A DNA stretch of 64,000 nt from assembly GCA_963920705.1 (NCBI GenBank), contig OY987228.1, positions 19,414,565 to 19,478,564 on the forward strand, read 5' to 3'. The notes beneath the pieces were generated by a model. That model was not told where the DNA came from. It saw only the letters and a program-made list of their open reading frames with translations, and did no database searches. Shown here piece after piece: positions 12,292 through 64,000 of this stretch; position 1 is the stretch's first letter, and each line of letters starts with the position of its first letter. A program made the translations under genes and the position numbers. Source of the DNA: Odiellus spinosus. Lineage: Eukaryota > Arthropoda > Arachnida > Opiliones > Phalangiidae.

Positions 12292-14131
12292 TCAACCCAT
12301 CTTTTTTTTTGTTCATTCGTTCGTTTGGTATCTCTGAAAATTTAACCAAGGGAAAGAATTTTTTTATTTTTTTAAGGGTTATAAGTAATGTTCTTGTATG
12401 GAAGAAAACGTTTTTTACGTTTTTTCTCTTAGATTATTTTTTATTTATTTAGGGTTTTTTTTTCGTGAAGTATGGTGATGTCCCACTGATAAAAACTTTG
12501 TTCCTAGTTAGTCCGTTTCTCGCAGAGAATACAGCGCTGCCTAAAACTGGTTCATTCTCGAAATAGGACGTATCGTGTATGTAGATAACCTTAGCGTAGC
12601 TTTATACCCGGTGAAAACTCTGAATAGAAATGTAACCTCGTCTTTAAGACTATCGCGTCCATTTTTTTTGCCCTTCCTTCGTATTCTACGTTTCTAATAG
12701 AAGGGAGTAGAAGGAGAGGTTTTTCTTCGCCCGGCCGCAGATTGGCGAGAATAAAAATCGGACATAAGGTCTGTCGAAAAATATAGCACCCCAATCTCCT
12801 TATAGGCCTATAGCTTCTTATCGTTTCATATTCGAACGCCGTCAGTCCCCCAACCCTCTGGTGGGTGCCGCGTGGTAGTAAAAAAGATTTCTCCACCACT
12901 CCTGCCCCTCTGCTTTAAAGAAAAGTACTTTGTTTATTCCCTTCTTTTTGGACACGAAAGTCCCTGGCCATTTTATACTATTTCTATATATACAGTATAT
13001 ATGTTTCGTTCATTTTACGATACTTTTCCCCCTTCGTTCCTTCAATTTAGAGATACTTTTTAAATAAAAAGAAAAAACGTACTGTACTGTTGGGCTTTGA
13101 GGTTCTGTAACTCGAGTTCGTTTCAAACGGGGTGAGGAATGTTGGCGAATGCTACTTTAGTATCTCTTTCAATCCTTAAAAGGTTTCTATAGTTTCTAGT
13201 TTCGGAAGTGGAGAAAATTTAGGATAGAATCAACCCCCCCGTAAGAAGTTTTATATTTTTGTTGAGTTTATGAAAGGGAAGAAAATACATAAATACGAAA
13301 TGAATTTGGATCTACCCTTATCCGTCTATATCTAATATAATAATAAAAATTCCGAAATCATGATGAAAAACAAGATTTTCCCCTCATTTTCGTAAATATT
13401 TTTCTTCAGGATGGAGGGCGAATCTCCGAGAAGAAAGAACGGAAAAATAATGTTTATAGCCTGGGTTGGCGTCAATGAACGATTTATTTAACCCCGTCCA
13501 ATGAAATATTCGCTAGAAAGCTCGAGCGAGAGAGGACTGGTTACGATAAGTGTTTATGGTAAGTAGAGGAGCGGAGGTCAATCTAGATGACGCGTCTTTT
13601 GGCTTTCCATAAGGGTAACATTTAGGACAATTCGAGCCTCCGAGGTCGAGAGACTTAAGGAAAGGGTCAAGAATTGGCTACTAAACGTATATACCCAAAG
13701 TACCAGCTCCGTCCGAATGCGCGACGTTGGAAGGTTGTTGAGGAACAGGGTCAATTCGTAACGTTTCTTTTGTTCTTTTTTTTTTCATCGGGCCGTAAGT
13801 TAACTGCAGTCTCGCCTCTGGTGGTACCGAAGCGACGTTGGCCTATAGCTCGGCCCCTCGTTTCTCTTTCTCCCATCTTCTCAATCCAATTCTTCAATGT
13901 ACCCCGTACATTTTAGCCGACGAGATTTCTTTTTTCTCCATCTTTCTCCCCTCCCAGTCATTTCTCCTCGATTCTGTAAGCTACGGTCTCTGGTCAGTAA
14001 GCTAGAACGCGGCGCTGGCGGTCAAGAATGATATTCCGAGCGAGCTCTACTATTCTATAGGTTTTTCATCTCATTCTCCTCCCATTCTGGCGCGACGGAT
14101 GACTCCGGGGTTGAGTAAAACCTGGCGGGTA
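12292..14131 (+). repeat. Tandem duplication, copy 1 (1,840 bp)
   Basis: This block recurs immediately downstream at an offset of exactly 1,840 bp, with no difference seen in the lines I compared, homopolymer tracts included. The copies meet at ...GCGGGTA|TCAACCC, and the second copy ends at GCGGGTA|TCAGTCT, so the trinucleotide TCA is shared at the breakpoints. The block is non-coding as far as I can tell: its short frames (63-102 codons) have no domain and are duplicated with it. Confidence 0.95.
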
Positions 14132-15971
14132 TCAACCCATCTTTTTTTTTGTTCATTCGTTCGTTTGGTATCTCTGAAAATTTAACCAAGGGAAAGAATT
14201 TTTTTATTTTTTTAAGGGTTATAAGTAATGTTCTTGTATGGAAGAAAACGTTTTTTACGTTTTTTCTCTTAGATTATTTTTTATTTATTTAGGGTTTTTT
14301 TTTCGTGAAGTATGGTGATGTCCCACTGATAAAAACTTTGTTCCTAGTTAGTCCGTTTCTCGCAGAGAATACAGCGCTGCCTAAAACTGGTTCATTCTCG
14401 AAATAGGACGTATCGTGTATGTAGATAACCTTAGCGTAGCTTTATACCCGGTGAAAACTCTGAATAGAAATGTAACCTCGTCTTTAAGACTATCGCGTCC
14501 ATTTTTTTTGCCCTTCCTTCGTATTCTACGTTTCTAATAGAAGGGAGTAGAAGGAGAGGTTTTTCTTCGCCCGGCCGCAGATTGGCGAGAATAAAAATCG
14601 GACATAAGGTCTGTCGAAAAATATAGCACCCCAATCTCCTTATAGGCCTATAGCTTCTTATCGTTTCATATTCGAACGCCGTCAGTCCCCCAACCCTCTG
14701 GTGGGTGCCGCGTGGTAGTAAAAAAGATTTCTCCACCACTCCTGCCCCTCTGCTTTAAAGAAAAGTACTTTGTTTATTCCCTTCTTTTTGGACACGAAAG
14801 TCCCTGGCCATTTTATACTATTTCTATATATACAGTATATATGTTTCGTTCATTTTACGATACTTTTCCCCCTTCGTTCCTTCAATTTAGAGATACTTTT
14901 TAAATAAAAAGAAAAAACGTACTGTACTGTTGGGCTTTGAGGTTCTGTAACTCGAGTTCGTTTCAAACGGGGTGAGGAATGTTGGCGAATGCTACTTTAG
15001 TATCTCTTTCAATCCTTAAAAGGTTTCTATAGTTTCTAGTTTCGGAAGTGGAGAAAATTTAGGATAGAATCAACCCCCCCGTAAGAAGTTTTATATTTTT
15101 GTTGAGTTTATGAAAGGGAAGAAAATACATAAATACGAAATGAATTTGGATCTACCCTTATCCGTCTATATCTAATATAATAATAAAAATTCCGAAATCA
15201 TGATGAAAAACAAGATTTTCCCCTCATTTTCGTAAATATTTTTCTTCAGGATGGAGGGCGAATCTCCGAGAAGAAAGAACGGAAAAATAATGTTTATAGC
15301 CTGGGTTGGCGTCAATGAACGATTTATTTAACCCCGTCCAATGAAATATTCGCTAGAAAGCTCGAGCGAGAGAGGACTGGTTACGATAAGTGTTTATGGT
15401 AAGTAGAGGAGCGGAGGTCAATCTAGATGACGCGTCTTTTGGCTTTCCATAAGGGTAACATTTAGGACAATTCGAGCCTCCGAGGTCGAGAGACTTAAGG
15501 AAAGGGTCAAGAATTGGCTACTAAACGTATATACCCAAAGTACCAGCTCCGTCCGAATGCGCGACGTTGGAAGGTTGTTGAGGAACAGGGTCAATTCGTA
15601 ACGTTTCTTTTGTTCTTTTTTTTTTCATCGGGCCGTAAGTTAACTGCAGTCTCGCCTCTGGTGGTACCGAAGCGACGTTGGCCTATAGCTCGGCCCCTCG
15701 TTTCTCTTTCTCCCATCTTCTCAATCCAATTCTTCAATGTACCCCGTACATTTTAGCCGACGAGATTTCTTTTTTCTCCATCTTTCTCCCCTCCCAGTCA
15801 TTTCTCCTCGATTCTGTAAGCTACGGTCTCTGGTCAGTAAGCTAGAACGCGGCGCTGGCGGTCAAGAATGATATTCCGAGCGAGCTCTACTATTCTATAG
15901 GTTTTTCATCTCATTCTCCTCCCATTCTGGCGCGACGGATGACTCCGGGGTTGAGTAAAACCTGGCGGGTA
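14132..15971 (+). repeat. Tandem duplication, copy 2 (1,840 bp)
   Basis: Direct head-to-tail repeat of 12,292-14,131, apparently identical. Such identity over non-coding DNA means either a very recent duplication or an assembly artefact from unmerged haplotypes or a mis-joined long read. Confidence 0.95.
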
Positions 15972-17900
15972 TCAGTCTCGGAGTCGGTAAACTAAAGAAG
16001 GATAGTACCGAGGCCGAGTATAAAAATAACCGAGTTAGTTTCCTAAATTCGCGCCAGCGGCTTGGCTAGCTTCTTTTGGCGCTGACAAATGACCAGGGTA
16101 CCGGTCGTACGGCCGGTCGGGTCTTCTTTATCGCGACTAGGGCGGCGTGGGTCGACTTCACCCACCCTTCGACAGCCCCTTTTACATAGATGTCGCTGAT
16201 GTTCGTCCCACTTTCGCGCCGGGTACCGATAAATCAGAGGAGAGCTAGAGAGAGCGGCCCCGACCAGAGTCCCCCGAAAAGATTTTTTCCCATCTCTTTT
16301 TCCTTCTTCTTCTCATTCTCTTTCCTAACTCCGTTCTTTTCCTCCTCCCTCGAATACCCATTTTATATCGCCAAAGCGTCTCTAACCTTTTCTTTTCTTT
16401 GTACCGCGCGGAATCTACCCCCTTAGTCCTGGTATAGCTAGTCGGCGATTCTTCAAGCCAATTCCTCCCCCCTCCGTTCCTAAATGGAGGTACGGGATGG
16501 AGCTTTTGGTTAAAGGGCGTTGTTTTGGGGTCTGAAGCGGGAGATTCGCCCCGAATCTAGGTTTTCCTGAAGTGCATTCCTGAAACATTAGGTACACTAT
16601 ACTCTCTTTTCTATCGATATTTATTACCGAGTTCGAAATCCGTATGGTACGTTACCAACTTACCATTTTGAATATTAAGGGTATATACGTTGCCCTGTTA
16701 TCGGATGCAACGTCGTACTCGAAGAGTTTTTTGTAAAAACCTTTCGAGGTTACCATGGAATACTACTTTCCATAAATTGATGGCGTGGTATAAAACTTCC
16801 TTTAGATTTTGAACGTTTAAAAACGCTAATTTTTAAATCTTATTACCAAAATCTTGAAATTGAACATCTGGCGTTTTAAGGAAAAGTTAAAACTTGAGTG
16901 AAATATAATTAATATAATATTTATATTTCGTATGCTCTATTAAATATCGAAAGAAACCAAATAAATTCCGCAGTTTTACTCCCTATTTCGAAGCCCTAGG
17001 AGCGCAAAAATTAAAATTAAAAAATAATTAGGATACAATACAATTGAAATGCGTAATAAAATTTTATTAAACTTATAAAAAGGTTTCGCTAAGCCTAAAT
17101 TAGTGTCAGAATATAAAGATTGTTGAGAAGTTGGGAATTGCTCATGCCAATGAGAGTTTCTCCTATAGAAATGGCGCCATTTCTTAATACAATCTTCAAG
17201 TTTTCGCATCCCCATTCTCGAATCCATGGCATCAGCAATTTTTCAATCTGAAATTTCTAAGATGTTAAATTCACCAGGAATTGCCTCGAAACCTCTGAGT
17301 TTGAATAATAATTCTACGCATATTTAAACAGTACTATGAATCGATTAAAAATCACTCGCGATTCAGTCTTCTTAGTAATCCTTTAAACCTGAAAATTAGC
17401 CACTGTGAATATACAATGTTGTTCATTTGTATCACTAATGTATCGGGATCTTATTAGAGGGGTGTGTGTGGGAGAATAGCATCAAATTTAGTTGGAAGTA
17501 GGAAAGGGCGAATTCGTAATGAATCCGTTATTAGGAATTAATGTCTCGGGGAATACGATCTTTCGAAGCGAAGACAAACAATATATAGGGCACGCGGGCG
17601 GTGGGGCGCCATGGTTCCGTAATTAAATGTATCGTTGACTTGTTTACGGGGGGGGGGGGCAGCTAGTGACGATATTAGTTATTAGGATGACTGAGCGAGA
17701 TCTATCTCTCTGTGTCCTCTTCCCTTCTCTCGCGCGGGCACTTGGTCGATTACCGAATCCCTCTTTTCCTCCTTTACCCGATCTTCATCCGTGGGATCGT
17801 CTCTCTTCATCCCCCGTATCCTTTCGCTAGAGCTCGCGCGAGATCAGAAAGCTAAACGAGAGAAAAGGAGCGAAGTCGCGTCACTTCGACATCGGCGTCT
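15972..17900. other. GC-richer, CpG-containing intergenic stretch
   Basis: From about 16,000 to 16,600 and 17,580 to 17,900 the sequence is visibly richer in G+C and CpG than its surroundings (for example CTCGCGCGAGAT near 17,830, and a poly-G run near 17,650). The longest frame (about 16,190-16,426) is low-complexity S/F-rich and unsupported. The interval could hold promoter sequence for the ADAMTS-like gene to its right; otherwise I see no feature. Confidence 0.35.
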
Positions 17901-20214: not shown

Positions 20215-20515
20215 GACTACCAGACCAAGAAGGATCAGATAAGGAGAGGAAATGTGGGGCTGCGTTGAGTTAGAGAGAGAAGAGCCAACCTCCCACTCGG
20301 GTGGAAAGGGGGGATAGGAAATTCTCGGGGTAAACTGTTGTCACGTGGTCGCTAGCTAGCGCGTCTCATAAAGGATTCGTTTTACCCACGTGACAACATT
20401 TTACCACGAAACGTCTCTACCCCCGTTCTCCCAGAGTGGGAGTTTAGGCCGACGCAGTAGGAACCGCGCCGTCCCCACATTTCCTCTCCTTATCTGATCC
20501 TTCTTGACCAGACTT
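20215..20515. mobile_element. Foldback/MITE element, about 300 bp, with nested inverted repeats
   Basis: A 33-bp perfect inverted repeat pairs 20,227-20,259 with 20,473-20,505. Inside, a 13-bp pair (TGTTGTCACGTGG at 20,336-20,348 and its complement at 20,386-20,398) encloses a loop of about 37 bp. The arms have diverged in between. There is no coding content; the frames seen here are by-products of the arms. It lies in the putative long first intron of the ADAMTS-like gene. Confidence 0.7.
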
Positions 20516-20939: not shown

Positions 20940-21086
20940 TTAAAGGGACTATCTGTGATTTTTAAAACCCCTTTAAAGTCGCCTTATTTTTTAGATTAGC
21001 AGACGACGTTGACCATAACAAATTGTACAGTTAAAGCTAGTCTGTGTTGATTAGAACATTTTAAAGGGGCAAATTGTAGAGCAGAT
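20940..21086 (+). mobile_element. Half-copy of the family-C inverted-repeat element
   Basis: The segments CCTTTAAAGTCGCCTTATTT, AGCAGACGACGTTGACCA and TTTTAAAGGGGCAAATT match the left arm of 35,848-36,139, including order and spacing. Only one arm is present, so this is a solo half rather than a full hairpin. Confidence 0.6.
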
Positions 21087-22293
21087 AGCTTGCGACAAAA
21101 TTCATGGAGTAATAATAAGGGGAGCAACAGACGTAAAATCATGGAGTAGAGAGAATAAAGGAGAGACAGACGTCATCATGGAGTTCCACTCTTTTGCAAC
21201 TTGTAAATTTGGCCGCGGTTTTAATTAACAACTTAACATCAGAGGCAAAAAAAAGTCTTTGCGTAACTACTCTGGTGACACCCATCTTGTTTACTAGCTG
21301 TCTGATCCTTACGAATCCTCATGAACAGCGGAAGAAAATGAAGTTTCATCCCCAATCTTTTTTGATTCTTTCTCTAGTTTCCTCTCTTCTCTAGAGATCC
21401 CAAAAAGTCGCTCTAGACATTTAATTTTTTTTTTTGTTCCATTTTTGTGGTATTCACTGAAGTTTCTGACCATCATATAAAAGCTCGGACTAAAGATGAA
21501 TGGTTATAGGATCACATTATATAATTCTTTCTTTAAAGGGATAGTAACACGCACGATCTAATCGATCTGTTCAAAATCTATTTCGGATTTTTATTTCAAC
21601 CAGGTATACTTTATAACGGAAGCATTCTAATCAAGTGCTGTACAAATAATTAAGTATTTTTTCTCATGAGCGCAAAATCTCAATTAAAATAAATACATAA
21701 TGAAAATCAATGCTATAATTTAAAATAGGTAGTTAAAATAAAAAACAACGAAAAATTAAAGATCATGAATTCAATGTCATAAACCCTAAACGACTCAACC
21801 TATTTTTTTCGTTTTTAAATTATATCCTAAGATATATTTTTTCTACGTTATCTAACTATTTAGAAGCGATAGAGTGAACAGCAGACGTAGAAAGAGAAAA
21901 ACAGGTATACCCTTATATCTTTCTCCTCCCCTTTACAGTATGGCGTCTAAATCACTAGACGGTATACCTTTAAGTATATATCGAGGTATATACTTCTCAT
22001 ATCCCTTCGTAAAGACCATTAAATTTCAATTACACTCTTGTTCCTGGAGTGATAAAAATCCGATGCTATATATTCATGGCATCTCGTAAAAATTGAAAGC
22101 TATATAGGCCCTCTTTCATCCTTCCTAGTAGTCACACTGGCAATGCCGGCGTGGAGGGATATTTCAACGCTCCCGCGCTACAATTTCGTACCTAGGAAGG
22201 TTTAAGATTAGTATAGGAGGAAGCCAAACTTAATCTGGGACTCCGGTAAATTTCTTTGGTGATTAAATTTGTTGTTTTTATTTTTACTCGCAG

Positions 22294-35490: not shown

Positions 35491-36803
35491 GTTATAAAAT
35501 TTGGCTTGCTCTTAGACTAATTTTAGTGCAATAATTTAAATGTTACATATTTTTATATTAAAGTTTAACGTATTTATTTCCCCTGAAAAAAACCTAAAAA
35601 TATTGAAATACTCTCGCGAATGATGTACCTAATCTAATTGGGTATTTCTATTGTTAAAATTGTTAACTGGAGTTAAAAAACACATTGAAAATAAAAAATT
35701 TAATTTTTTTATCAGAAAGGTGTTATAGAAATACTCTATAGAGTACTGAAGCCAAAGGATAAGTGAGTATTTAATTATGGCATGGTCAGGAATGGGAGGG
35801 TGGTGGTAACATCAAGAAGTCGACTTTAAGAAGGGTTTTGCAAATGCAGATAGTCCCTCTGATTTTATAGCTCCCTTAAAGTCGCCTTATTTTCTTGCTT
35901 AACAGACGAAATTGACCGTAAGAAATTGTGATGTCAATCAAAGCTAGGCAGTGTGCTTTTAAAGGGGCAAATTCTAAAGCAGATAAGGCCTTTAAAGGCC
36001 CCCTCTGCTCTGAAACTTGCCCCTTTAAAATGCTCTTCCCTTCTGTACTCTGCTTAGCTTTGACTGTACAATTTGTTTTGTGCAACGTCGTCTGCTAAGC
36101 TAGAAAAGGGAATTTTAAAATAGATAGTCCCTTTAAATGGTAAAAAGCTTGGTGGTAGGTCACTAGGTCTGATTTTAAAATGATTGGTAATTAGAGTTTT
36201 CTTAAATTATTGTAAAAATTCAAAATTTAAGGTCTTATTGTTTTTATTTTTGTAGCATAATTTATTTTCCATGATTTTTTTTAACTTGTACTTGAAACTA
36301 TTTAAGTCAGTATCCATGTAAAAAAAAAGAAAAAAAAAACGAAAATTGATATTGACCAAAATAGTGCCACAGAGGGCACTGGACAACTATGATTTTTGGT
36401 CCCGGAGTCGGACTCCCGGTCTCTTTTTATAGTGGTTAAGGTTTAGTGGAAAGACGTGTTTTGATGATAAAATAAATTTAGTTTATATAATTTTTATAAC
36501 ACACTAATATTAAACTTGTCGCTATGGTGAAGTAACTAGTAAAGGCTACGAGTAAGTTCGTTAATTTTAATGGTCGTTAACTCTTACTTTTTTGATTCTG
36601 ACAAAAAGTGACAATAGAACCAAGTCTTTAGGGATGTGAATGTGAATTTTGGTGTGCCCGATTCCTTTCCTTGTCCTAAAATCGTTTTAAGGAATACTTA
36701 GGAAAGGCCATATTCCATAATAATTCTTAAATTAGGTAAATTACGAACTTATTTAATCTTTCTTAATTACAAATTAATTTATTGCTGTCAAGGTTAATTA
36801 ATA
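35491..36803. other. Intergenic interval between the ZIP gene and ATXN7L3
   Basis: It contains candidate polyadenylation signals for the ZIP gene (ATTAAA near 35,556; AATAAA near 35,690) and the family-C hairpin element (35,848-36,139). A small GC-rich inverted motif (GGAGTCGGACTCC) lies near 36,405. No coding gene is seen. Confidence 0.55.
35848..36139. mobile_element. Family-C long-hairpin MITE, about 290 bp
   Basis: The two halves are diverged reverse complements around a centre at about 35,990 (GGCCTTTAAAGGCC). They share CCCTTTAAA, the AGCAGACGACGTTG-type block and AAGGGGCAAATT, and a GATAGTCCCT motif occurs near each end. A one-arm copy lies at 20,940-21,086. Transcribed, it would fold into a long imperfect double-stranded RNA. 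It has no ORF of its own. Confidence 0.65.
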
Positions 36804-42149: not shown

Positions 42150-45100
42150 ATGGTAAATATTCATTATATATGAAACTGCTAAGATATATGATAAATCTAA
42201 GCCTTGGTTTTTTATAGAGTGAACACATACCCATTGACATACACAGTAATAAACTGTTGGGTAAGAATTAGATTTTTGAATTCGATCAAAGTCTTGTTAG
42301 TTAAAATCGTAAATATCTTTACAGATTGGCTTGTTAGTCGTCGTCACTGTAATCGTGACTGGCAAAATTCGGTGATTAACATTCGTAAAAAGATAAACAG
42401 TGCCATTCAAGACATGCCCGAAGTCCAAGAAATTAAAGAGCTGCTAGCTGGAAGCTGTAAGAGAAAAACTATTCTTTAAATTGAGTGTTTCCCATAAAAA
42501 CCTTTTTTATTACTTAGACATCAATTATTTTCACTGCCAACGAATCATTGAGATTCTCAGAGAGACTGAAAAAAACTCTAAGAACATTTTTGGCCAATAT
42601 TCTTCTCAACGCATGAAAGATTGGCAGGAAATACTTAAGCTTTATGAAACCAACAACATTTATTTGGGTGAATTGTTCTTTTATACCTCTTTCTCTCAAC
42701 TAATATAATGAATACTTGCATCATTTCTTGTTATTTAATAGTCATATTGATTAATCAATCAATTTAACCAGTTGAAACGCACCATTGCTCAGCTTTAATT
42801 CTACTTCTAATTAAGTTTTATTTTTTTTATAAAAGCCGAAGCTGCCCAGATGTTAAGTAGAAATATCAGTTACGAAGTTCCTTCCCTAAAGAAGCAAATT
42901 TCCAAATGCCAACAAATTCAAGAGGAATGTGTTAAAAAAGAGGGTGAATACGGAAAAATGGCCCATGAGTTAAAAGAGAAGTATTTCACCGCCTGCAAAG
43001 AAATCGGAATTGAGGGAAATAATTTAAGAAAAGAACTTCTGGACCTTTTGAAGGACTTACCAGAGTCTTTTAACAAAGTGACTGAAAATGCCAAAGCTTT
43101 GAAAGAAGCGAGAGATTTTTACGTGGCATTTTTAATTTTTACCCTCGAAAAGTAATTAGACTAAATTACCATTTTAAGTTATATTCAAATGTAAGTATTA
43201 ATTTAAGAAATTCTTCTTTCAATTTAGCGTCGAGGTTGCAAATTCTAGTTTACCTCTTTTGAAACACGTAATCGACAAAGGAAATACTACCGTATATGAA
43301 TGGAAGTACAAAGATGCTCCTGAAGTAATTGAGGAAACAAAACCGGAAATTCCTATTGATGTGGAAAGCAAAAATGGAGGATCGGATGAGGTGATTATTT
43401 TAAATTTATCAAATGTTTATTTTACTGTCGTCTATTTTGGCTTAGATGAATATTTTTAATCAATTCTTATTCATTTAAATTAGATTGACTTTGGAGATGA
43501 CAGTGCGGGAATTGATTTTGGGGATGAAAATTCTAGCAGTACGACCAACGGAGATTTTGTACACGTTGAAAAAGTACATAATATATTTAAGTTTACTTAA
43601 GTTTAAACGAAGCCACTGTCTCCGTTAGTAAGTTCATTAATTTGTGCAATTGTCACTTTATTTTTCTTAGATAGATTTTGGCGATGAAGATCAAATAATT
43701 GAACTTGGCTCTCCAGCAATATCGGAATCTAATTTTGATTTCCCATCTGAAGTTTCTGATATACCTCCAGGTAAATTATATTTGACTCGTTATAATTTAA
43801 AGTGAGGCTGTCACCATTTTTTCGAATGTCTATAGATTATGTTTTTAGTTATATCATACTAATAAGAGCGCCTTAAAATTTTTATGGTTCTGAAAATGAA
43901 AATGTCAAATATTTATAGGTATTTTTCCAATATATATTTTTGGAATGTAGATTTTCTGGATTCAAATTTTTGGCGGGAAATATTGATTTTTAAATTTTAA
44001 TAAATTGAATAAAATTTTTAAAATTTAGAAAGCAAGGTTGCTAAAGGCATAAATGCTTTATCAGTTTTGGATCACCAAGAAACGAGGAATGCGTTTTTAA
44101 ATGATCTTCGTGAGGTAAGAATTAAAAACTATTGATTATAAACTAAGAATACACCCAGTATTAAATCCAAAATTACCTAACTGATCTACAATTTAAGCTT
44201 AATTGCTATACTGAATGTTTGCAGTAGCTCTGACCCAATCGTCTTGATTATTTATTATTTAGCTGGAGGGTTTTTTGGAACAACGTCTATTGGAAATGCA
44301 ACTTGAAAGCGACGTTCTATCAGCCAATCAGTTTCAATCAGCGCCACAAATTGTTCAGCTTCAAAACTCCGATTCCTTGGATGGAATGCTGAGATGCGTT
44401 CACGATGTTCTGTCTCAAATGGTTACGCTAAAAATGCAACATCTCTATTTGATTCGGGAATCTCCAAAATACGTTGACAGACTCGTGGAGAATTTACATC
44501 AGAAGCTTAGTTTGTCAGAAAAAATGCTGTTATCGCAAGAAGCCATTAAATGGAAAGAAGCTGAAGCGAAAGAGGAACAGAGGTCCTTAGCACCAAGGGT
44601 TAGTCTCATTGTGGAAAAGACTAAAATCTTGCAAAAGCAGGTAGGATTGGAATAATTTTATTACCCTGAAATTTACATTATATTTGATTGAGTTTAGGAT
44701 TTTGGGCAAGTTTTGATATATCAAAATTTTGTTAAGCCTGGGCTTTGTAGGTAAGAGTGATTTGTCACTGGTCAGTTTCTCTAGTTATGCCAAAAAGGTT
44801 ACTTTTAGGACGAAAAGGGTTACTTTTAGGACGAAAAGGGTTACTTTTAGGACGAAAAGGGTTACTTTTAGGACGAAAAGGGTTACTTTTAGGACGAAAA
44901 GGGTTACTTTTAGGACGAAAAGGGTTACTTTTAGGACGAAAAGGGTTACTTTTAGGACGAAAAGGGTTACTTTTAGGACGAAAAGGGTTACTTTTAGGAC
45001 ATAAAGGGTTACTTTTAGGACATAAAAGGTTACTTTTAGGACATAAAGGGTTACTTTTAGGACAAAAAAGGGTTACTTTTCAGACAAAAAATGGTTACTT

Positions 45101-45762
45101 TTTAGCCTTTTAGGACAAAAAATGGTTACTTTTTAGCCTTTTAGGACAAAAAATGGTTACTTTTTAGCCTTTTAGGACAAAAATGGTTACTTTTTAGCCT
45201 TTTAGGACAAAAAATGGTTACTTTTTAGCCTTTTAGGACAAAAAATGGTTACTTTTTAGCCTTTTAGGACAAAAAATGGTTACTTTTTAGCCTTTTAGGA
45301 CAAAAAATGGTTACTTTTTAGCCTTTTAGGACAAAAAATGGTTACTTTTTAGCCTTTTAGGACAAAAAATGGTTACTTTTTAGCCTTTTAGGACAAAAAG
45401 AAAGTTACTTTTTAGCCTTTTAGGACAAAAAGAAGGTTACTTTTTAGCCTTTTAGGACAAAAAGAAGGTTACTTTTTAGCCTTTTAGGACAAAAAGAAGG
45501 TTACTTTTAGGACGAAATGGATTACATTTAGGACGGAAAAGGGTTACTTTTTGGGCGAAAAAGGGTTACAATTAGGGCGAAAAAGGGTTATTTTCCAATA
45601 TAAATTTTGTTCAATCGAAATATTTATTTAGAAATTTCAATGAGTCGTTTGATTCTTATTTTAAAACCCATCTACGTATTTGGTTTTTAGATTGAAAATG
45701 ATATTTCGAAAAAATACAAAGATAGATCCGTTAACATTCTCGGTGGAGTCAATACTCTCTGA
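42150..45762 (+). CDS. CDK5RAP3: CDK5RAP3 (C53), UFM1 E3 ligase complex subunit
   Basis: Eleven exons (42150-42152, 42218-42260, 42325-42456, 42518-42667, 42836-43151, 43228-43390, 43484-43573, 43671-43770, 44029-44114, 44263-44640, 45691-45762) encode 510 residues, against 506 in human. Exon 1 is the ATG alone. The protein aligns throughout: IPIDIHSNKLLDWLVSRRHC, NIFGQYSSQRMKDWQEI, SYEVPSLKKQISKCQQ, GNTTVYEWKYKDAPE and the C-terminus KYKDRSVNILGGVNTL. CDK5RAP3 joins UFL1 and DDRGK1 to direct UFMylation of ER-bound 60S ribosomes and ER-phagy. The disordered middle carries three I-D-F-G motifs (residues 270-273, 279-282, 300-303) where human has I-D-W-G UFM1/ATG8-binding motifs. The last intron (44,641-45,690) holds a large minisatellite, and intron 8 holds a TIR element. 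Confidence 0.96.
43799..44020 (+). mobile_element. Truncated family-B TIR element in CDK5RAP3 intron 8
   Basis: It starts AAAGTGAGGCTGTCACCATT, the best-preserved left terminus of family B, followed by GATTATGTTTTTAGTTATAT and a diverged interior. The right terminus is missing. It fills nearly all of the 258-bp intron 43,771-44,028. Confidence 0.6.
44797..45090. repeat. 21-bp minisatellite in the CDK5RAP3 last intron
   Basis: About 13 head-to-tail copies of a 21-bp unit whose core is GGTTACTTTTAGGACGAAAA. The rightmost units drift to GGACATAAA and GGACAAAAA before merging into the 31-bp array. The period is a multiple of three, so spurious frames run through it. Confidence 0.95.
45091..45595. 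repeat. 31-bp minisatellite derived from the adjacent 21-bp array
   Basis: About 13 copies share GGTTACTTTTTAGCC plus TTTTAGGACAAAAAAT. The unit equals the neighbouring 21-bp unit with about 10 bp (TTTAGCCTTT-like) inserted. The right end shows AAAGAAGG variants, then decayed 21-24-bp units to about 45,595. Confidence 0.93.
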
Positions 45763-47086: not shown

Positions 47087-47545
47087 TTATTACACGTGAA
47101 AACTTTGAGTCGGCAAACCTATTCCTTCTTCAAGCAAGCATGGGCCAAGAAACGATAAATCCAGGACATGACTCTAGCGTCTACTAAAAGAAACAGGCTA
47201 CGTCATCACCGTACCGTACCCGCGAATTCAATCGTTTGACCCGCGAATTCAATCGTTTGACCCGCGAATTCAATCGTTTGACCCGCGAATTCAATCGTTT
47301 GACCCGCGAATTCAATCGTTTGACCCGCGAATTCAATCGTTTGACCCGCGAATTCAATCGTTTGACCCGCGAATTCAATCGTTTGACCCGCGAATTCATT
47401 CGTTTGACCCGCGAATTATTACACGTGAAAACTTTGAGTCGGCAAACCTATTCCTTCTTCAAGCAAGCATGGGCCAAGAAACGATAAATCCAGGACATGA
47501 CTCTAGCGTCTACTAAAAGAAACAGGCTACGTCATCACCGTACCG
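46888..47545 (+). repeat. 329-bp direct duplication (satellite plus partial MITE)
   Basis: About 46,888-47,216 recurs at about 47,217-47,545, offset exactly 329 bp. Each copy contains satellite units, then GCGAATTATTACACGTGAAA, then the left part of the element that is complete at 47,468-47,721, ending at CATCACCGTACCG. 329 is not a multiple of 21, so this is a separate event from unit-by-unit expansion. Confidence 0.9.
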
Positions 47546-47721
47546 TGATGACGCGTTTTTTGGGGTCAAGTTTGTACAGTCAAAGCCATGGCATTTTGGG
47601 AGCAAAGTGACGTCATATGACGTCACACGCTGTACGAAGGCTGTTTGTTTGGCCGACCGAGAATTTTATTCCCTCAAACAGGGAAGAGTCATGTCCTGGA
47701 TTTATCGTTTCTTTGCCCATG
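47468..47721. mobile_element. MITE with 36-bp TIRs, 254 bp, beside the senseless stop codon
   Basis: Terminal inverted repeats start CATGGGCCAAGAAACG and end CGTTTCTTTGCCCATG, with one mismatch over about 36 bp. The interior holds TGACGTCATATGACGTCA, a double CRE-like palindrome. GCAAG occurs at both flanks (offset by 2 bp on the right), a possible duplication. Only 10 bp separate the right end from the stop codon of the Gfi1/senseless gene, so the element lies in its 3' UTR. Confidence 0.8.
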
Positions 47722-47731
47722 ATGCAAGGTT

Positions 47732-56500: not shown

Positions 56501-58300
56501 TCGAAGTTTAGAATCCCCGAGGTCTTAATCAACAGAGAGGGGTTAGAGGGTAACCAAGAATGAATTGAGCTCCGCTTTCTTATTGGCCAAGCTTCTCCGC
56601 AACCAACTTAGATCAGCTTCTCAGTGGATTTAAGTTGGCCGTGGTTTGGCGTGGCTAACAAATAAGCGGGACTTGTTTTACGATAAAGTACAAGAGCTTG
56701 TTACCAGTGGCTAAAGCTATAGCTCAACGTTCTTAGAAACTTTAATATCTTCTTGGAGTAGCCTTAAAAATAAAATATATATATATATACACAAAAATTG
56801 CAAGTGACCGAACCCTCGAATTTGACCACAACTGATCGGCTCCAGCCACCAGGATCGCCGCGATCGCGCTGGAGTCACTTTGCTCCATTGAAGTTTCTAA
56901 TCTATATACGTTATTTATTTTATCTATGTCTAAACTCGTCATGGTTTCTTGTAAAGAATACTTTACGGGTAATTCTTTACAGAAGTGAGAAAAGTTAATT
57001 TTACCGTAAGGCAAATGAAAGGAATAATCCAAAATATTTAAAAATAATTGGGTCTAAAAAATCTTAAAGGATGGGTTTAATTCTAGAAGGGGCTAAAACT
57101 TTCCAAATTATAAATTACCAATTTATTAATTTACTCGAGCAAACCCTAAATTACTATTACCTTAGTAATTTACAGAGTAAAATATCGATTTAGAACTCGA
57201 TTTACTTTCAAGAATAGTGTAGTTTTATCTATTTTTTTTTTTTTTTACGAAATGTCTAAATTGAAATATAAACCATTATCTTAAAAATGAGAATTTGTAT
57301 ATGAACAGGGAGTAGTTGTCTAAATTGGTGTGGAACTAAGTGTCGCAAAAAAAAAAAAAAGAACAATAGAATTTCTTTTACCCGAAGAAAATCGATCCAG
57401 AAATTAAGAATTTTCGCCCAAATAATCCAAGAGTTTTTTCTTAGTAAAATTGTTTTATTTGTATGACGTTTCAGATTTGTATTCGAAAAATGTACAACTG
57501 CTACAAAGTATATTAGATTTTGACCCAGTTTATAGACTAAAGAATAATGGAAAATTTATTTCCTGGACTGACCGCAACGAGTGAAAATTAAATCTTCGAC
57601 GAAAATATAAAAATTAAAAAAAAAAAAAAAATTAAACAATAATAATATTAAATATACTTTCGTAATTTGCTCCAAGATCAAATCTAGCTGTAGCATTTCT
57701 CTTCTAATGTTTCCGTAGAGAACAAGAGCTTTTGAATTTGTAATTGTAATATAAGAAGCGTATATATTCGTTTGACAATATTGTAATGAGAAATTCTTCG
57801 ATCTTTCCAAGCGTGAGCTCGTCTCTATGGAATGAAACAATATAAAACGTTTTTTAGGATGCAAGAGCGATCAACCTCGAATATTTTTTTATTTAAACGG
57901 TTTAAAGTTTTGATCTTCTCCGACGTGCGTGGCGACTCGGGCGCCATATACTTTTGTACGTATAAATGCAACAAGGTCATGGTCAACTCTGTAATAATAA
58001 TTCAGAATGTAGGCATAATACTTTAACGAAATTGCTGTAGTGGAAACAGTATTTGATGTCATTAAGGGGAAGAACTTGTTTATCATAGACTTTATTTAAT
58101 TCCTCAGAGATTACAAGGGATTATTTTACGATAATTGAGTAACTATTTTAGAAATGGTTCAAATAATTCCAAAAAAAAAAAAAAAAAAAAAAAAATTAAT
58201 TTCGGTGTAAAATTATTGAAAATATAAATTCATATCTGGAATAATGCTTAAAGCGAGGGATGATGACGGCTGGAATTATTTAATTTTTTTTTTTTTCAAA
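53554..58300. other. Upstream region of the senseless gene, no supported exon
   Basis: No open frame chains by phase to the exon ending at 53,553. A GC-richer patch at 53,850-54,250 carries overlapping frames on both strands but no domain. A MITE lies at 54,712-54,965. AT-rich, with A/T homopolymers (for example poly-A near 58,171). The missing first exon(s) and promoter of the senseless homologue may be here or beyond the satellites. Confidence 0.45.
54712..54965. mobile_element. hAT-like MITE, TIR CAGGGTTCRTGCA, 254 bp
   Basis: The ends CAGGGTTCATGCA and TGCACGAACCCTG are inverted with one mismatch. Internal motifs TTCCATGATTT, CCTGATATTTCC and CCCTGATT recur. An internal part recurs inverted at 48,332-48,380. 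No clear 8-bp duplication is visible. Confidence 0.7.
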
Positions 58301-58307
58301 GGGTGTG

Positions 58308-58379
58308 TTATTTTCAAAATGGTTTTTATTTTCAAACGGGCTTTTATTTTCAAACCGTGTTTTATTTTCAAAACAGGAT
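58308..58379. repeat. Four diverged 18-bp units related to the 60.7-62.7 kb array
   Basis: Four consecutive 18-bp units begin TTATTTTCAAA and vary after it (ATGGTTT, CGGGCTT, CCGTGTT, ACAGGAT). The second differs little from the main array unit TTATTTTCAACGGGTCTT. They lie about 2.4 kb left of that array and just before the GGGGTGTATTTATT satellite. Confidence 0.85.
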
Positions 58380-58488
58380 TTTTTCCAAGGGATATCCAAG
58401 AGCAATTTTTCAAAGGTACCATTTGTAAAAAAAAATAACTACACCCCCCTGTAAAATAAATAATCAAAAATTTTTCAAGAGGTACCCT

Positions 58489-60085
58489 ACAGGGGGTGTA
58501 TTTATTATTTTTTTTTACAGGGGGTGTATTTATTATTTTTTTTTTTACAGGGGGTGTATTTATTATTTTTTTTTTACAGGGGGTGAATTTATTATTTATT
58601 TTTTTACAGGGGGTGTATTTATTATTTATTTTTTTTACAGGTGGTGTATTTATTATTTTTTTTTTACAGGGGGTGTATTTATTATTTTTTTTTACAGGGG
58701 TGTATTTATTATTTTTTTTATAGGGGGTGTATTTATTATTATTATTTTTTTTTTACAGGGGGTGTATTTATTATTTATTTTTTTTTACAGGGGGTGTATT
58801 TATTATTATTTTTTTTTTTTTGCTGGGGGTGTATTTATTAATTTTTTTTTACAGGGGGTGTATTTATTTTTTTTTACAGGGGGTGTATTTATTATTTTTT
58901 TACAGGGGGTGTAATTATTATTTATTTTTTTTACAGGGGGTGTATTTATTATTTATTTTTTTACAGGGGGTGTATTTATTATTTATTTTTTTTACAGGTG
59001 GTGTATTTATTATTTTTTTTTTACAGGGGGTGTATTTATTATTTTTTTTTTTACAGGTGGTGTATTTATTATTTTTTTTACAGGGGGTGTATTTATTATT
59101 TTTTTACAGGGGTGTATTTATTATTATTATTTTTTTTTTACAGGGGGTGTATTTATTATTTATTTTTTTTTACAGGGGGTGTATTTATTATTTTTTTTTT
59201 TTTTTTTGCTGGGGGTGTATTTATTAATTTTTTTTTACAGGGGGTGTATTTATTTTTTTTTACAGGGGGTGTATTTATTATTTTTTTTACAGTGGATTTA
59301 TAATTTATTTTTTACAGGGGGTGGATTTATTATTTTTTTTTTTACAGGGGGTGGATTTATTATTTTTTTTTTTACAGGGGGTGGATTTATTATTATTTTT
59401 TTTTACAGGGGTGTATTTATTATTAATTTTTTTACAGGGGGTGTATTTATAATTTTTTTTTACAGGGGGTGTATTTATTATTTTTTTTATAGGGGGTGGA
59501 TTTATTATTTATTTTTTTTATAGGGGGTGTATTTATTATTTTTTTTTTTTTTGCTGGGGGTGTATTTATTATTTTTTTTTTTACAGGGGGTGTATTTATT
59601 ATTTTTTTTTTTATAGGGGGTGTATTTATTATTATTTTTTTTTTTTTTGCTGGGGGTGTATTTATTATTTTTTTTTTACAGGGGGTGTATTTATTTTTTT
59701 TACAGGGGGTGTATTTATTATTTTTTTTACAGGGGGTGGATTTATAATTTATTTTTTACAGGGGGTGGATTTATTATTTATTTTTTTTTACAGGGGGTGG
59801 ATTTATTATTTTTTTTTTTACAGGGGGTGGATTTATTATTATTTTTTTTTACAGGGGTGTATTTATTATTAATTTTTTTACAGGGGGTGTATTTATAATT
59901 TTTTTTTACAGGGGGTGTATTTATTATTAATTTTTTTTATAGGGGGTGTATTTATTATTTATTTTTTTTACAGGGGGTGTATTTATTATTTATTTTTACA
60001 GGGGGTGTAATTATTATTTTTTTCAGGGGGTGTATTTATTATTTATTTTTTTTACAGGGGGTGTATTTATTATTTTTTTTTTTTT
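58489..60085. repeat. Satellite A: ACAGGGGGTGTATTTATTAT plus variable poly-T
   Basis: Roughly 50 units of ACAGGGGGTGTATTTATTAT followed by a T-run of variable length (unit about 26-34 bp). Variants include GGTGGATT, GGGGTGAATT and TTGCTGGGGGTG. The TTGCTGG variant recurs near 58,821, 59,207, 59,552 and 59,649; its spacing and neighbouring variants show duplicated blocks (about 385 bp between the first two). At the left edge an inverted unit (ACACCCCCCTGTA near 58,441) faces the array. Confidence 0.95.
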
Positions 60086-60097
60086 ACAAGGGGTAAA

Positions 60098-60629
60098 AAT
60101 CTCAATTTTCCAAATCTCTATTTTCCAAATCTCTATTTTCCCAATCTCAATTTTTTCCCAAATCTCAATTTTTTCCCAAATCTCAATTTTTTCCCAAATC
60201 TCAATTTTTTTCCAAATCTCAATTTTTTTCCAAATCTCAATTTTTTTTCCAAATCTCAATTTTTTTTCCAAATCTCATTTTTTTTTCCAAATCTCAATTT
60301 TTTTTCCAAATCTCAATTTTTTTCCAAATCTCAATTTTTTTTACAAATTTCAATTTTTTTTCCAAATCTCAATTTTTTTTCCAAATCTCAATTTTTTTTT
60401 CCAAATCTCAATTTTTTTTCCAAACCTCAATTTTTTTTCCAAATCTCAATTTTTTTTCCAAATCTCAATTATTTTTTTTCCAAATCTCAATTTTTTTTCC
60501 AAATCTCAATTTTTTTTCCAAATCTCAATTTTTTTTCCAAATCTCAATTTTTTTTCCAAATCTCAATTTTTTTTCCAAATCTCAATTTTTTTTCCAAATC
60601 TCAATTTTTTTTCCAAATCTCAATTTTTT
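60098..60629. repeat. Satellite B: CAAATCTCAATTTTTTTTC, about 19 bp
   Basis: About 27 units of CAAATCTCAATTTT with a T-run of 4-9 before the next C. The left units are shorter and include CTATTTTC variants. It directly follows a decayed satellite A unit (ACAAGGGGTAAAAATCTC) and ends at the tRNA-derived segment. Confidence 0.95.
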
Positions 60630-60644
60630 AGTTAATTGTAATTC

Positions 60645-60720
60645 AACCAATTCGTAGCCCAGTGGTTAGGGTGTCGGGTTATCGAACAAATGGGCTCGAG
60701 TTCGATCCCAGCCTTTAATG
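60645..60720 (+). repeat. tRNA-derived SINE-like segment
   Basis: It contains a perfect pol III A box (TAGCCCAGTGG, 60,655-60,665) and a good B box (AGTTCGATCC, 60,699-60,708) at tRNA-like spacing. The acceptor and anticodon stems do not pair well, so it is more likely the head of a tRNA-derived SINE than a functional tRNA. It lies exactly between satellites B and C. Confidence 0.65.
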
Positions 60721-60748
60721 TTATATAATATTGCCCGAAATTTCAATG

Positions 60749-62668
60749 TCTTTTTCAACGGGTCTTTTATTTTCAACGGGTCTTTTATTTTCAACGGATC
60801 TTTTATTTTCAACGGGTCTTTTATTTTCAACGGGTCTTTTATTTTCAACGGGTCTTTTATCTTCAACGGGTCTTTTATTTTCAACGGGTCTTTTATTTTC
60901 AACGGGTCTTTTATTTTCAACGGGTCTTTTATTTTCAACGGGTCTTTTATTTTCAACGGGTCTTTTATTTTCAACGGGTCTTTTATTTTCAACGGGTCTT
61001 TTATTTTCAACGGATCTTTTATTTTCAACGGATCTTTTATTTTCAACGGGTCTTTTATCTTCAACGGGTCTTTTATCTTCAACGGGTCTTTTATTTTCAA
61101 CGGGTCTTTTATTTTCAACGGGTCTTTTATTTTCAACGGGTCTTTTATTTTCAACGGGTCTTTTATTTTCAACGGGTCTTTTATTTTCAACGGGTCGTTT
61201 ATTTTCAACGGGTCTTTTATTTTCAACGGGTCTTTTATTTATTTTCAACGGGTCTTTTATTTTCAACGGGTCTTTTATTTTCAACGGGTCTTTTATTTTC
61301 AACGGGTCTTTTATTTTCAACGGGTCTTTTATTTTCAACGGGTCTTTTATTTTCAACGGGTCTTTTATTTTCAACGGGTCTTTTATTTTCAACGGGTCTT
61401 TTATTTTCAACGGGTCTTTTATTTTCAACGGGTCTTTTATTTTCAACGGGTCTTTTATCTTCAACGGGTCTTTTATCTTCAACGGGTCTTTTATCTTCAA
61501 CGGGTCTTTTATCTTCAACGGGTCTTTTATTTTCAACGGGTCTTTTATTTTCAACGGGTCTTTTATTTTCAACGGGTCTTTTATCTTCAACGGGTCTTTT
61601 ATCTTCAACGGGTCTTTTATCTTCAACGGGTCTTTTATCTTCAACGGGTCTTTTATCTTCAACGGGTCTTTTATCTTCAACGGGTCTTTTATTTTCAACG
61701 GGTCTTTTATTTTCAACGGGTCTTTTATTTTCAACGGGTCTTTTATTTTCAACGGGTCGTTTATTTTCAACGGGTCGTTTATTTTCAACGGGTCTTTTAT
61801 TTTCAACGGGTCTTTTATTTTCAACGGGTCTTTTATTTTCAACGGGTCTTTTATTTTCAACGGGTCTTTTATTTTCAACGGGTCTTTTATTTTCAACGGG
61901 TCTTTTATTTTCAACGGGTCTTTTATTTTCAACGGGTCTTTTATTTTCAACGGGTCGTTTATTTTCAACGGGTCGTTATTTTCAACGGGTCGTTATTTTC
62001 AACGGGTCTTTTATTTTCAACGGGTCTTTTATTTATTTTCAACGGGTCTTTTATTTATTTTCAACGGGTCGTTTATTTTCAACGGGTCTTTTATTTTCAA
62101 CGGGTCTTTTATTTATTTTCAACGGGTCTTTTATTTTCAACGAGTCTTTTATTTTCAACTGGTCTTATTTTCAACGGGTCTTTTATTTTCAACGGGTCTT
62201 TTATTTTCAACGGGTCTTTTATTTTCAACGGGTCTTTTATTTTCAACGGGTCTTTTATTTTCAACGGGTCTTTTATTTTCAACCGGTCTTTTATTTTCAA
62301 CGGGTCTTTTATTTTCAACGGGTCTTTTATTTTCAACGGGTCTTTTATTTTCAAAGGTGCTTTTATTTTCAACGGGTCTTTTATTTATTTTCAACGGGTC
62401 TTTTATTTTCAAAGGGTCTTTTATCTTCAACTGGTCTTTTATTTTCAACGGGTCTTTTATTTTCAACCGGTCTTTTATTTTCAAAGGTGCTTTTATTTTC
62501 AACGGGTCTTTTATTTTCAACGGGTCTTTTATTTTCAACGGGTCTTTTATTTTCAACGGGTCTTTTATTTTCAACGGGTCTTTTATTTTCAACGGGTCTT
62601 TTATTTTCAACGGGTCTTTTATTTTCAACGGGTCTTTTATTTTCAACGGGTCTTTTATTTTCAACGAG
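60749..62668. repeat. Satellite C: 18-bp TTTTATTTTCAACGGGTC, about 105 units
   Basis: An 18-bp unit with clustered variants: TTTTATCTTC runs (near 61,068, 61,457-61,520 and 61,580-61,675), CGGATC, GGGTCGTTT, and 22-bp units with an extra TTTA (near 61,228, 62,030, 62,050, 62,110, 62,383). Because 18 is a multiple of three and the unit has few stops, frames up to 729 codons cross it; they are artefacts. The right end decays into satellite A. Confidence 0.97.
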
Positions 62669-62935
62669 TATTTATTAATATTTTTTTACAAGGGGTGTAT
62701 TTATTAATATTTTTTTTACAGGGTGTGTATTTATTTTTATTTTTTTACAGGGGGTGTATTTATTATTATTTTTTTTACAGGGGGTGTATTTATTATTATT
62801 TTTTTACAGGGGGTGTATTTATTATTATTTTTTTACAGGGGGTGTATTTTTTATTATTTTTTTTACAGGGGGTGTATTTTTTATTTAGTTTTTTTTACAG
62901 GGGGTGAATTTATTATTTATATTTTTTTACAGGGG
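62669..62935. repeat. Satellite A, second block
   Basis: About eight units of the GGGGTGTATTTATT-T(n)-ACAG type reappear right of satellite C, with ACAAGGGG and ACAGGGTG variants at the boundary. They grade into the 17-bp satellite D. Confidence 0.93.
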
Positions 62936-64000
62936 GTGTATTTTTACAGGGGGTGTATTTTTACAGGAAGTGTATTTTTACAGGAAGTGTATTTTTACAG
63001 GAAGTGTATTTTTACAGGAAGTGTATTTTTACAGGAAGTGAATTTTTACAGGAAGTGAATTTTTACAGGGGGTGAATTTTTACAGGGGGTGAATTTTTAC
63101 AGGGGGTGAATTTTTACAGGGGGTGAATTTTTACAGGGGGTGAATTTTTACAGGGGGTGAATTTTTACAGGGGGTGAATTTTTACAGGGGGTGAATTTTT
63201 ACAGGGGGTGAATTTTTACAGGGGGTGAATTTTTACAGGGGGTGAATTTTTACAGGGGGTGAATTTTTACAGGGGGTGAATTTTTACAGGGGGTGAATTT
63301 TTACAGGGGGTGTATTTTTACAGGGGGTGTATTTTTACAGGGGGTGTATTTTTACAGGGGGTGTATTTTTACAGGGGGTGTATTTTTACAGGGGGTGTAT
63401 TTTTACAGGGGGTGTATTTTTACAGGGGGTGTATTTTTACAGGGGGTGTATTTTTACAGGGGGTGTATTTTTACAGGGGGTGTATTTTTACAGGGGGTGT
63501 ATTTTTACAGGGGGTGTATTTTTACAGGGGGTGTATTTTTACAGGGGGTGTATTTTTACAGGGGGTGTATTTTTACAGGGGGTGTATTTTTACAGGGGGT
63601 GTATTTTTACAGGGGGTGTATTTTTACAGGGGGTGTATTTTTACAGGGGGTGTATTTTTACAGGGGGTGTATTTTTACAGGGGGTGTATTTTTACAGGGG
63701 GTGTATTTTTACAGGGGGTGTATTTTTACAGGGGGTGTATTTTTACAGGGGGTGTATTTTTACAGGGGGTGTATTTTTACAGGGGGTGTATTTTTACAGG
63801 GGGTGTATTTTTACAGGGGGTGTATTTTTACAGGGGGTGTATTTTTACAGGGGGTGTATTTTTACAGGGGGTGTATTTTTACAGGGGGTGTATTTTTACA
63901 GGGGGTGTATTTTTACAGGGGGTGTATTTTTACAGGGGGTGTATTTTTACAGGGGGTGTATTTTTACAGGGGGTGTATTTTTACAGGGGGTGTATTTTTA
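62936..64000. repeat. Satellite D: 17-bp ACAGGGGGTGTATTTTT, reaching the window end
   Basis: About 62 units of a 17-bp core that equals satellite A without the TATTATT spacer. Variants come in clean blocks: two standard units, then about seven ACAGGAAGTG units, about 15 ACAGGGGGTGAATTTTT units, then about 40 standard units with no visible change to position 64,000. The array is truncated by the window end. Confidence 0.97.

Follow-up and report, generated by a model that had tools for sequence, protein, structure and literature searches.

An interior minisatellite cluster of Odiellus spinosus, probably grown from displaced subtelomeric sequence

The ancestor of a satellite family is usually no longer visible. 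Chromosome-end DNA is met at interior sites in the form of interstitial telomeric sequences. A study on squamate reptiles describes SINE-derived satellites, recognised from the SINE families of the genome, with a preference for subtelomeric regions (PMC10702118). Work on Lathyrus sativus reports satellites grown from short tandem arrays within LTR retrotransposons (PMC7004042). In sciarid flies, repeats with units of 31 and 47 bp lie close to the chromosome ends, and one of the two is interstitial as well (PMC7694509).

The window analysed here, a stretch of 64,000 nucleotides of Odiellus spinosus, lies in the interior of C4 (19.47 of 25.33 Mb), and the block of arrays at its right end is probably an interior minisatellite cluster grown locally from displaced subtelomeric seed sequence. 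It looks like displaced, locally expanded chromosome-end DNA because its tRNA-like repeat sits mostly at chromosome ends and two neighbouring arrays seem to be end-derived. Like the squamate satellites, the tRNA-like repeats are SINE-related, tandem and preferentially subtelomeric; the squamate unit, however, was recognised from SINE families, whereas no dispersed SINE appears here among the 88 matches listed, and the interior monomer, unlike the squamate unit, is not what its neighbouring arrays are built of (PMC10702118). Short seed arrays expanding at particular places are common to this genome and to Lathyrus sativus, the seeds lying inside LTR retrotransposons there and, as proposed, in subtelomeres here (PMC7004042). 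Short repeats near chromosome ends, some interstitial, are likewise shared with the sciarid flies; the genome here, unlike the sciarid ends, has TTAGG telomeres (PMC7694509).

TRF and unit decomposition gave the array order old C, A1, B, tRNA-like segment, C, A2 and D, the order that the earlier note had read from the letters; all features lie on the plus strand unless stated otherwise. The diverged 18-bp units of old C (58288-58372; 4.7 copies, 81% matches by TRF) are real and begin at 58288 rather than at 58308, where they had been placed. Their proposed relationship to C is supported by listed alignments to the C array of 81-85% over 84-88 bp. A single inverted A-like unit of 41 nt on the minus strand (58427-58467, 80% complementary to 58501-58541) stands between old C and satellite A1, which comprises 54 units of about 30 bp (58488-60083; TRF, unit decomposition). 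Satellite B, with 28 units of 15 to 22 bp of which the last is cut (about 60095/60110 to 60629; unit decomposition), is followed by the tRNA-like segment (60625..60750). The remaining arrays, placed by both methods, are satellite C with 105 units of about 18 bp (60752-62666), satellite A2 with eight full units of about 30 bp (62668-62928) and satellite D with 63 units of 17 bp, running beyond the window (62929-64000). Arrays A to D are minisatellites by the TRF result, their tandem units measuring roughly 10-60 bp. The present analysis gave no sign of function for the block itself; Rfam miRNA matches in the arrays were under gathering scores and look repeat-driven, and exact-pattern scans of viral contigs for A, the tRNA-like segment, C and D returned 0 matches.

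Consensus similarity of the arrays was compared with shuffles in 132 tests. By sequence this revealed three families, one uniting A and D and the others being B and C, where four had been supposed. On the plus strand the A-B, A-C and B-C values were 0.052, 0.517 and 0.605, not clearly above shuffles, and the idea that A, B and C go back to a single repeat was rejected on that ground. The A2-D similarity exceeded shuffles (0.004) and, together with a transition at 62897-62945, supports the suggestion that D is A with its spacer deleted. The G-rich strand of D had suggested a telomeric repeat, a candidate discarded with the telomere here being TTAGG; a kinship between C and the 18-bp E repeat of the subtelomeres was likewise rejected (p 0.12 and 0.29).

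The tRNA-like segment is a single, diverged copy of the 131-bp monomer of a tRNA-like satellite (best identity 89%, query 7-124, to C3), of the subtype GGGTGTCGGGTTATCG in the monomer alignment. An internal Pol III promoter, a pair of box A (from 60655) and box B (to 60709) matching the box consensus, is present at one place in the window; none of 100 shuffles produced such a pair. The reading of this segment as a tRNA-derived SINE stands for its tRNA-like character and fails for the SINE, as the repeat occurs in tandem clusters and has no flanking duplication: no 7-mer was common to 60560-60656 and 60705-60800. The many dispersed single insertions expected of a SINE were not seen among the 88 matches listed, in which the window holds the only single copy and all others stand in tandem clusters. 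The RF00005 covariance model found no match in the window copy or in loci L002 and L006, and scored three monomers of locus L007 at 22.8-26.2 bits against a gathering score of 29 bits; ARAGORN called no tRNA. An exact-pattern scan for the segment in a genome contig collection, from which the records of this genome may be absent, gave 0 matches.

The 131-bp satellite has at least 88 listed matches in at least 21 clusters, both counts being lower bounds. Nine of the 21 listed clusters lie no more than 6 kb from the end of a contig, a further seven are the outermost on their contigs and are probable ends, and five, the window among them, are interior. With its tandem arrays close to the telomere the repeat is a subtelomeric satellite, and the window copy is by its sequence a member of it. 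No insect tRNA-like subtelomeric satellite was found in the literature searched, with most subscription papers outside its reach.

Arrays of the window were also compared with nine loci. B, the tRNA-like segment and A2/D scored above 100 of 100 shuffles and A1 alone above only 98 of 100; C, old C and the six other window minisatellites, the last serving as negative control, gave no match above shuffles, and the window flank at 44.6-58.5 kb had no match in the end loci with the low-complexity filter on. Among the eight end loci opened (C3 and C17 for only about 3 kb), (TTAGG)n was present in all, B units in four, and A/D units in two, a third carrying a related form. Neither B nor A/D units were found at the C10 end (to 9 kb) or the C4 end (to 8 kb). 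The left end of B resembles a subtelomeric B patch (0/100 shuffles), and 62920-62960, across the A-D junction, is identical at 41/41 positions to the C2 subtelomere (L010 8720-8760). The C2 and C14 subtelomeres have identical flanks and carry two versus one A/D units.

At the C14 and C2 ends the order on one strand is A/D, B, tRNA-like repeat, telomere, and A1, B and the tRNA-like segment of the window keep this order and strand, although the agreement could be due to chance (about 1 in 24). Interstitial telomeric sequences are likewise end DNA at an interior place, but the window has no TTAGG block; no 8-bp array or E array was found in it either. Stray single matches in the window are E-like at 32675 and 19-bp-like at 54764.

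The same resemblances would arise if dispersed short elements, namely a GGTACC-centred palindrome seeding A, the B patch, the tRNA-like repeat and C, had settled independently here and in subtelomeres with no movement from the ends, which is possible but rather unlikely. The 44.8-64 kb interval is minisatellite-prone: arrays make up about 46% of its bases, and six further minisatellites lie in it. C has another interior array at C5:8707155-8709072, and the matches listed include four more interior clusters of the tRNA-like repeat; what independent settling leaves aside is that B and the tRNA-like segment adjoin and are, together with A1, ordered and oriented as at two chromosome ends, and that 16 of the 21 listed tRNA-like clusters are verified or probable ends. 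With nine loci covered by the comparison, A, B and D may be dispersed elements and not specific to chromosome ends.

The edges of A bear on two further explanations. The left edge of A1 (58402..58436) is like the left end of a palindromic A-like element with a GGTACC centre in the C13 subtelomere, an alignment score matched by 0/500 shuffles of 58401-58520. The right edge (60074..60095) carries ACAAGGGGTA, the form in which that element ends on its right (1/500 shuffles), so that A1 is bounded on both sides by sequence like the termini of a single subtelomeric element. A 16-base direct repeat, TTTTTTTACAAGGGGT, lies on both sides of the B-to-C block at the facing A edges, with ACAAGGGGT at 62688 in the left edge of A2, and ACAAGGGG is present in 2/125 A/D cores, exactly these two edges. 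This pattern would suit the proposal of the earlier note that one A array was split by an inserted B-SINE-C element, the repeat being its 16-base target duplication. The TTTTTTTACAAGGGGT form, however, also ends the A-like element of the C13 subtelomere, and the tRNA-like part is a satellite monomer in mid-block without a duplication of its own, which makes the split quite improbable. Since the same form ends the C13 element, inherited ends of a subtelomeric element are the simpler reading of the ACAAGGGGT variant at the facing edges and would explain it better than insertion. No single part of A1 stood out as nearest to the A2 units. A duplicated ancestral C-A module, also proposed from the fact that A is preceded twice by C-like units, was not borne out and is hardly credible: the old C-A1 junction extends over 115 bp with the inverted A unit and the subtelomere-like palindrome, the C-A2 junction is abrupt and within a unit, and the two have only short A strings in common.

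Growth within the block is also recorded. Within A1, blocks are duplicated at lags of 357, 385-386 and 446 bp. The longest exact repeat of A1 measures 148 bp, whereas shuffling the unit order 100 times gave none longer than 97 bp; the whole-unit lag analysis of A1 gave no signal above shuffles. The unit length of B rises from left to right (rho 0.67, p 0.00015). In C and D like variants stand in runs (0/10000 shuffles each), in agreement with the local amplification suggested for both. If the cluster did grow from displaced subtelomeric seed, chromosome-end DNA would have been carried to the interior C4 site through rearrangement, repair of a break or ectopic exchange, and the material in between (TTAGG and the 18-bp E, 8-bp and 19-bp arrays) would have been lost or would never have arrived. 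Local growth of A, B and D would have followed, through slippage and through unequal exchange involving blocks some 12 to 15 units long, with D expanding after the loss of the spacer; C would have come from a separate source and expanded too. A wider reading is considered improbable, in which the window would be an internalised chromosome end (a relic of fusion, inversion or break repair with subtelomeric DNA), the 131-bp repeat a Pol III-transcribable end satellite with arrays passing between non-homologous ends, and subtelomeric DNA the seed of new minisatellite families.

One to a few units in the subtelomeres of today are likely the surviving founders of A/D and B. Because these likely founders persist there while the expanded arrays stand at an interior site, the steps from seed to array, namely spacer loss, block duplication and kept edges, are readable and testable here. 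The analysis also uncovered a tRNA-like satellite that adjoins the telomere at many chromosome ends. Across five ends on separate contigs its first monomers share 99.4% identity, so that exchange among chromosome ends can be tested directly.

The tandem arrays between 58.3 and 64 kb of the window (coordinates without a contig name are window positions) were analysed by TRF and unit decomposition. The analysis bore out the presence of the arrays and the order read in the earlier note, namely old C, A1, B, tRNA-like segment, C, A2 and D, with 54 units in A1, 28 in B, 105 in C, eight full units in A2 and 63 in D. The similarity of unit consensuses was assessed for 132 combinations of pair and strand, each set against 500 shuffles. 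The kinships A-A2, A-D, A2-D and C-old C were supported, and A-B (0.052), A-C (0.517) and B-C (0.605) were not clearly above shuffles; the arrays therefore represent three families and not the four counted earlier. The derivation of D, the 17-bp form, from A was upheld, as its kinship with both A and A2 lies above shuffles and the spacer between the T runs is lost after A2. Directly left of old C, A25 and T13 tracts pair as the arms of a perfect inverted repeat of 17 bases, 80 nt apart (58171-58296).

Within A1, stretches of 148, 107, 93 and 84 bp recur exactly at lags of 446, 357, 386 and 385 bp respectively, about 12-15 units, and the longest exceeds the maximum of 97 bp in 100 unit-order shuffles; no excess over shuffles was seen when the identity of whole units was compared at fixed lags. 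Like variants were clustered in C, with 40 runs against a shuffled mean of 58.3, and in D, with 5 runs against 31.2, each reached by 0 of 10000 shuffles. No such clustering was seen in B (1461 of 10000 shuffles), where unit length rises rightward (rho 0.67). Six other minisatellites, two of them mutually related, lie outside the old C-to-D block in the interval that starts at 44.8 kb, and tandem arrays occupy 8774 bp of the approximately 19.2 kb of this interval. The unit of the minisatellite at 44792-45594 passes from 21-22 bp to 31-32 bp and back to about 22 bp, which suggests that growth of a derived unit can split its parent array without any insertion. By eye, some 125 bp of unique sequence are duplicated along with part of a 21-bp GTTTGACCCGCGAATTCATTC array (47088-47212 and 47416-47540), with an inverted piece near 47670-47730.

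The assembly comprises 443 Mb in 286 contigs, and the window corresponds to C4:19414565-19478564. Animal genes are present in the window: Pfam matches, obtained for 8 of 10 submitted proteins, were to TSP1/ADAMTS-type domains, SIR2, ZIP, Sgf11, Hus1 and CDK5RAP3. A perfect head-to-tail duplication of 1843 bp (12292-15974, 100% identity) reflects either a very recent event or an error in the assembly. The stretches 20226-20506 and 35890-36107 are MITE-like and self-complementary, and 20960-21087, close to the former, is 74% similar to 35863-35985.

The tRNA-like segment, earlier read as SINE-like, carries box A and box B at normal spacing; it was not scored as a tRNA, and no duplication flanks it. 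A DNA search gave at least 88 matches in at least 21 clusters across the assembly, the counts being lower bounds and the grouping our own. Among the matches listed, nine of the 21 clusters lie less than 6 kb from a contig end (starts of C2, C10, C13 and C14; ends of C2, C3, C4, C17 and C18). Seven more, not among these verified ends, are outermost on their contigs among the matches listed (C1, C5, C6, C7, C11, C12 and C15), and five are interior (the window, C17:9.906 Mb, C6:7.816 Mb, C5:22.578 Mb and C12:23.631 Mb). The tRNA-like strand runs outward at all nine verified ends. The telomere repeat of the assembly is (TTAGG)n, the arthropod telomere motif according to PMC8977481. TTAGG is present in all eight ends opened of the nine verified, and these eight are taken to stand for all chromosome ends. 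TRF gave a single outward order at all four ends analysed with it: 19-bp repeat, degenerate TTAGG, 18-bp E array, 131-bp tRNA-like array, 7-bp/8-bp repeats and TTAGG. The motif map gave the same order at the remaining opened ends as far as scanned, and the C4 and C10 ends have a second E array on the inward side. In L009, L010, L013 and L014 the 19-bp repeat and the E array are separated by a degenerate TTAGG/TCAGG block, inward of the tRNA-like array. TRF made no call in the initial 2500 bases of L010, the C2 subtelomere, and the motif map showed no match in the initial 2500 of either L010 or L011.

When the window copy was aligned with 54 monomers taken from nine loci (eight ends and the interior L007), conservation was 0.93 for box A and 0.92 for box B against 0.89 for the remainder of the tRNA-like part and 0.82 beyond it, a small difference. 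Between five ends (C2, C13, C14, C17 and C18) the first monomers share 99.4% identity (10 pairs), and different monomers inside one end share 79% (65 pairs); these sequence comparisons suggest that the arrays are shared between ends. The window copy reaches at best 81.7% identity over the aligned length including flank (89% locally) and joins a group of 39 tips basally, so it probably departed from the satellite long ago. L007 (C17:9.906 Mb) is an interior array of 138-bp period with no telomere repeat and no E array within 3.1 kb. Window pieces 3081-3176 and 4141-4217 match its positions 823-934 at 74-82%; they are a dispersed repeat adjoining that array.

Counterparts of B and A/D, probable founders of the window arrays, were also present in some of the subtelomeres. 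At the C14, C2, C13 and C18 ends the E array encloses three to seven ATCTCA units of B type (own count); the C10 and C4 ends showed none, and the C3 and C17 loci scanned were only about 3 kb long. At one site about 8.3-8.8 kb from the end, with nearly identical flanks, C14 has one A/D unit, C2 two A/D units and a GGTACC palindrome, and C13 a longer palindromic form terminating in TTTTTTACAAGGGGTA; no A/D unit occurs in C10 (to 9 kb) or C4 (to 8 kb). The A2-D junction of the window equals C2 in 41 of 41 bases. Alignment pairs the A1 left edge with the left end of the C13 element, adjoining GCA included (0 of 500 shuffles). Where A1 ends on its right and A2 starts on its left, both show the ACAAGGGGT form of that element, a score against C13 reached by 1 and 2 of 500 shuffles respectively, part of this likeness being expected of any A unit; only these two facing edges carry it among 125 A/D cores. 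Against the nine loci, the B left end, B middle, tRNA-like segment and A2/D each exceeded 100 of 100 shuffles, as did, by a narrow margin, the old C-A1 junction (35.6 vs 34.6 bits), and A1 exceeded 98 of 100; C, old C and the six other window minisatellites did not stand out. A 31-base C pattern has 147 exact matches in the genome (reversed-pattern control 0), of which, among the 100 listed, 57 lie in the window C array and 43 at C5:8.707-8.709 Mb.

The outward order at the C14 and C2 ends is A/D, B, tRNA-like and telomere, on one strand throughout, and A1, B and the tRNA-like segment of the window have the same order and strand; the block is therefore read as subtelomere-derived. That a whole chromosome end was internalised here is not supported on the left side of the block, as the motif map shows no TTAGG, E or 8-bp array there and the 44.6-58.5 kb flank has no match to the loci compared, with the low-complexity filter on. 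A subtelomeric seed leaves satellite C unexplained. For the remaining arrays we infer a route by which a subtelomere-derived seed sequence would have arrived at the interior site of contig C4 and would then have expanded there.
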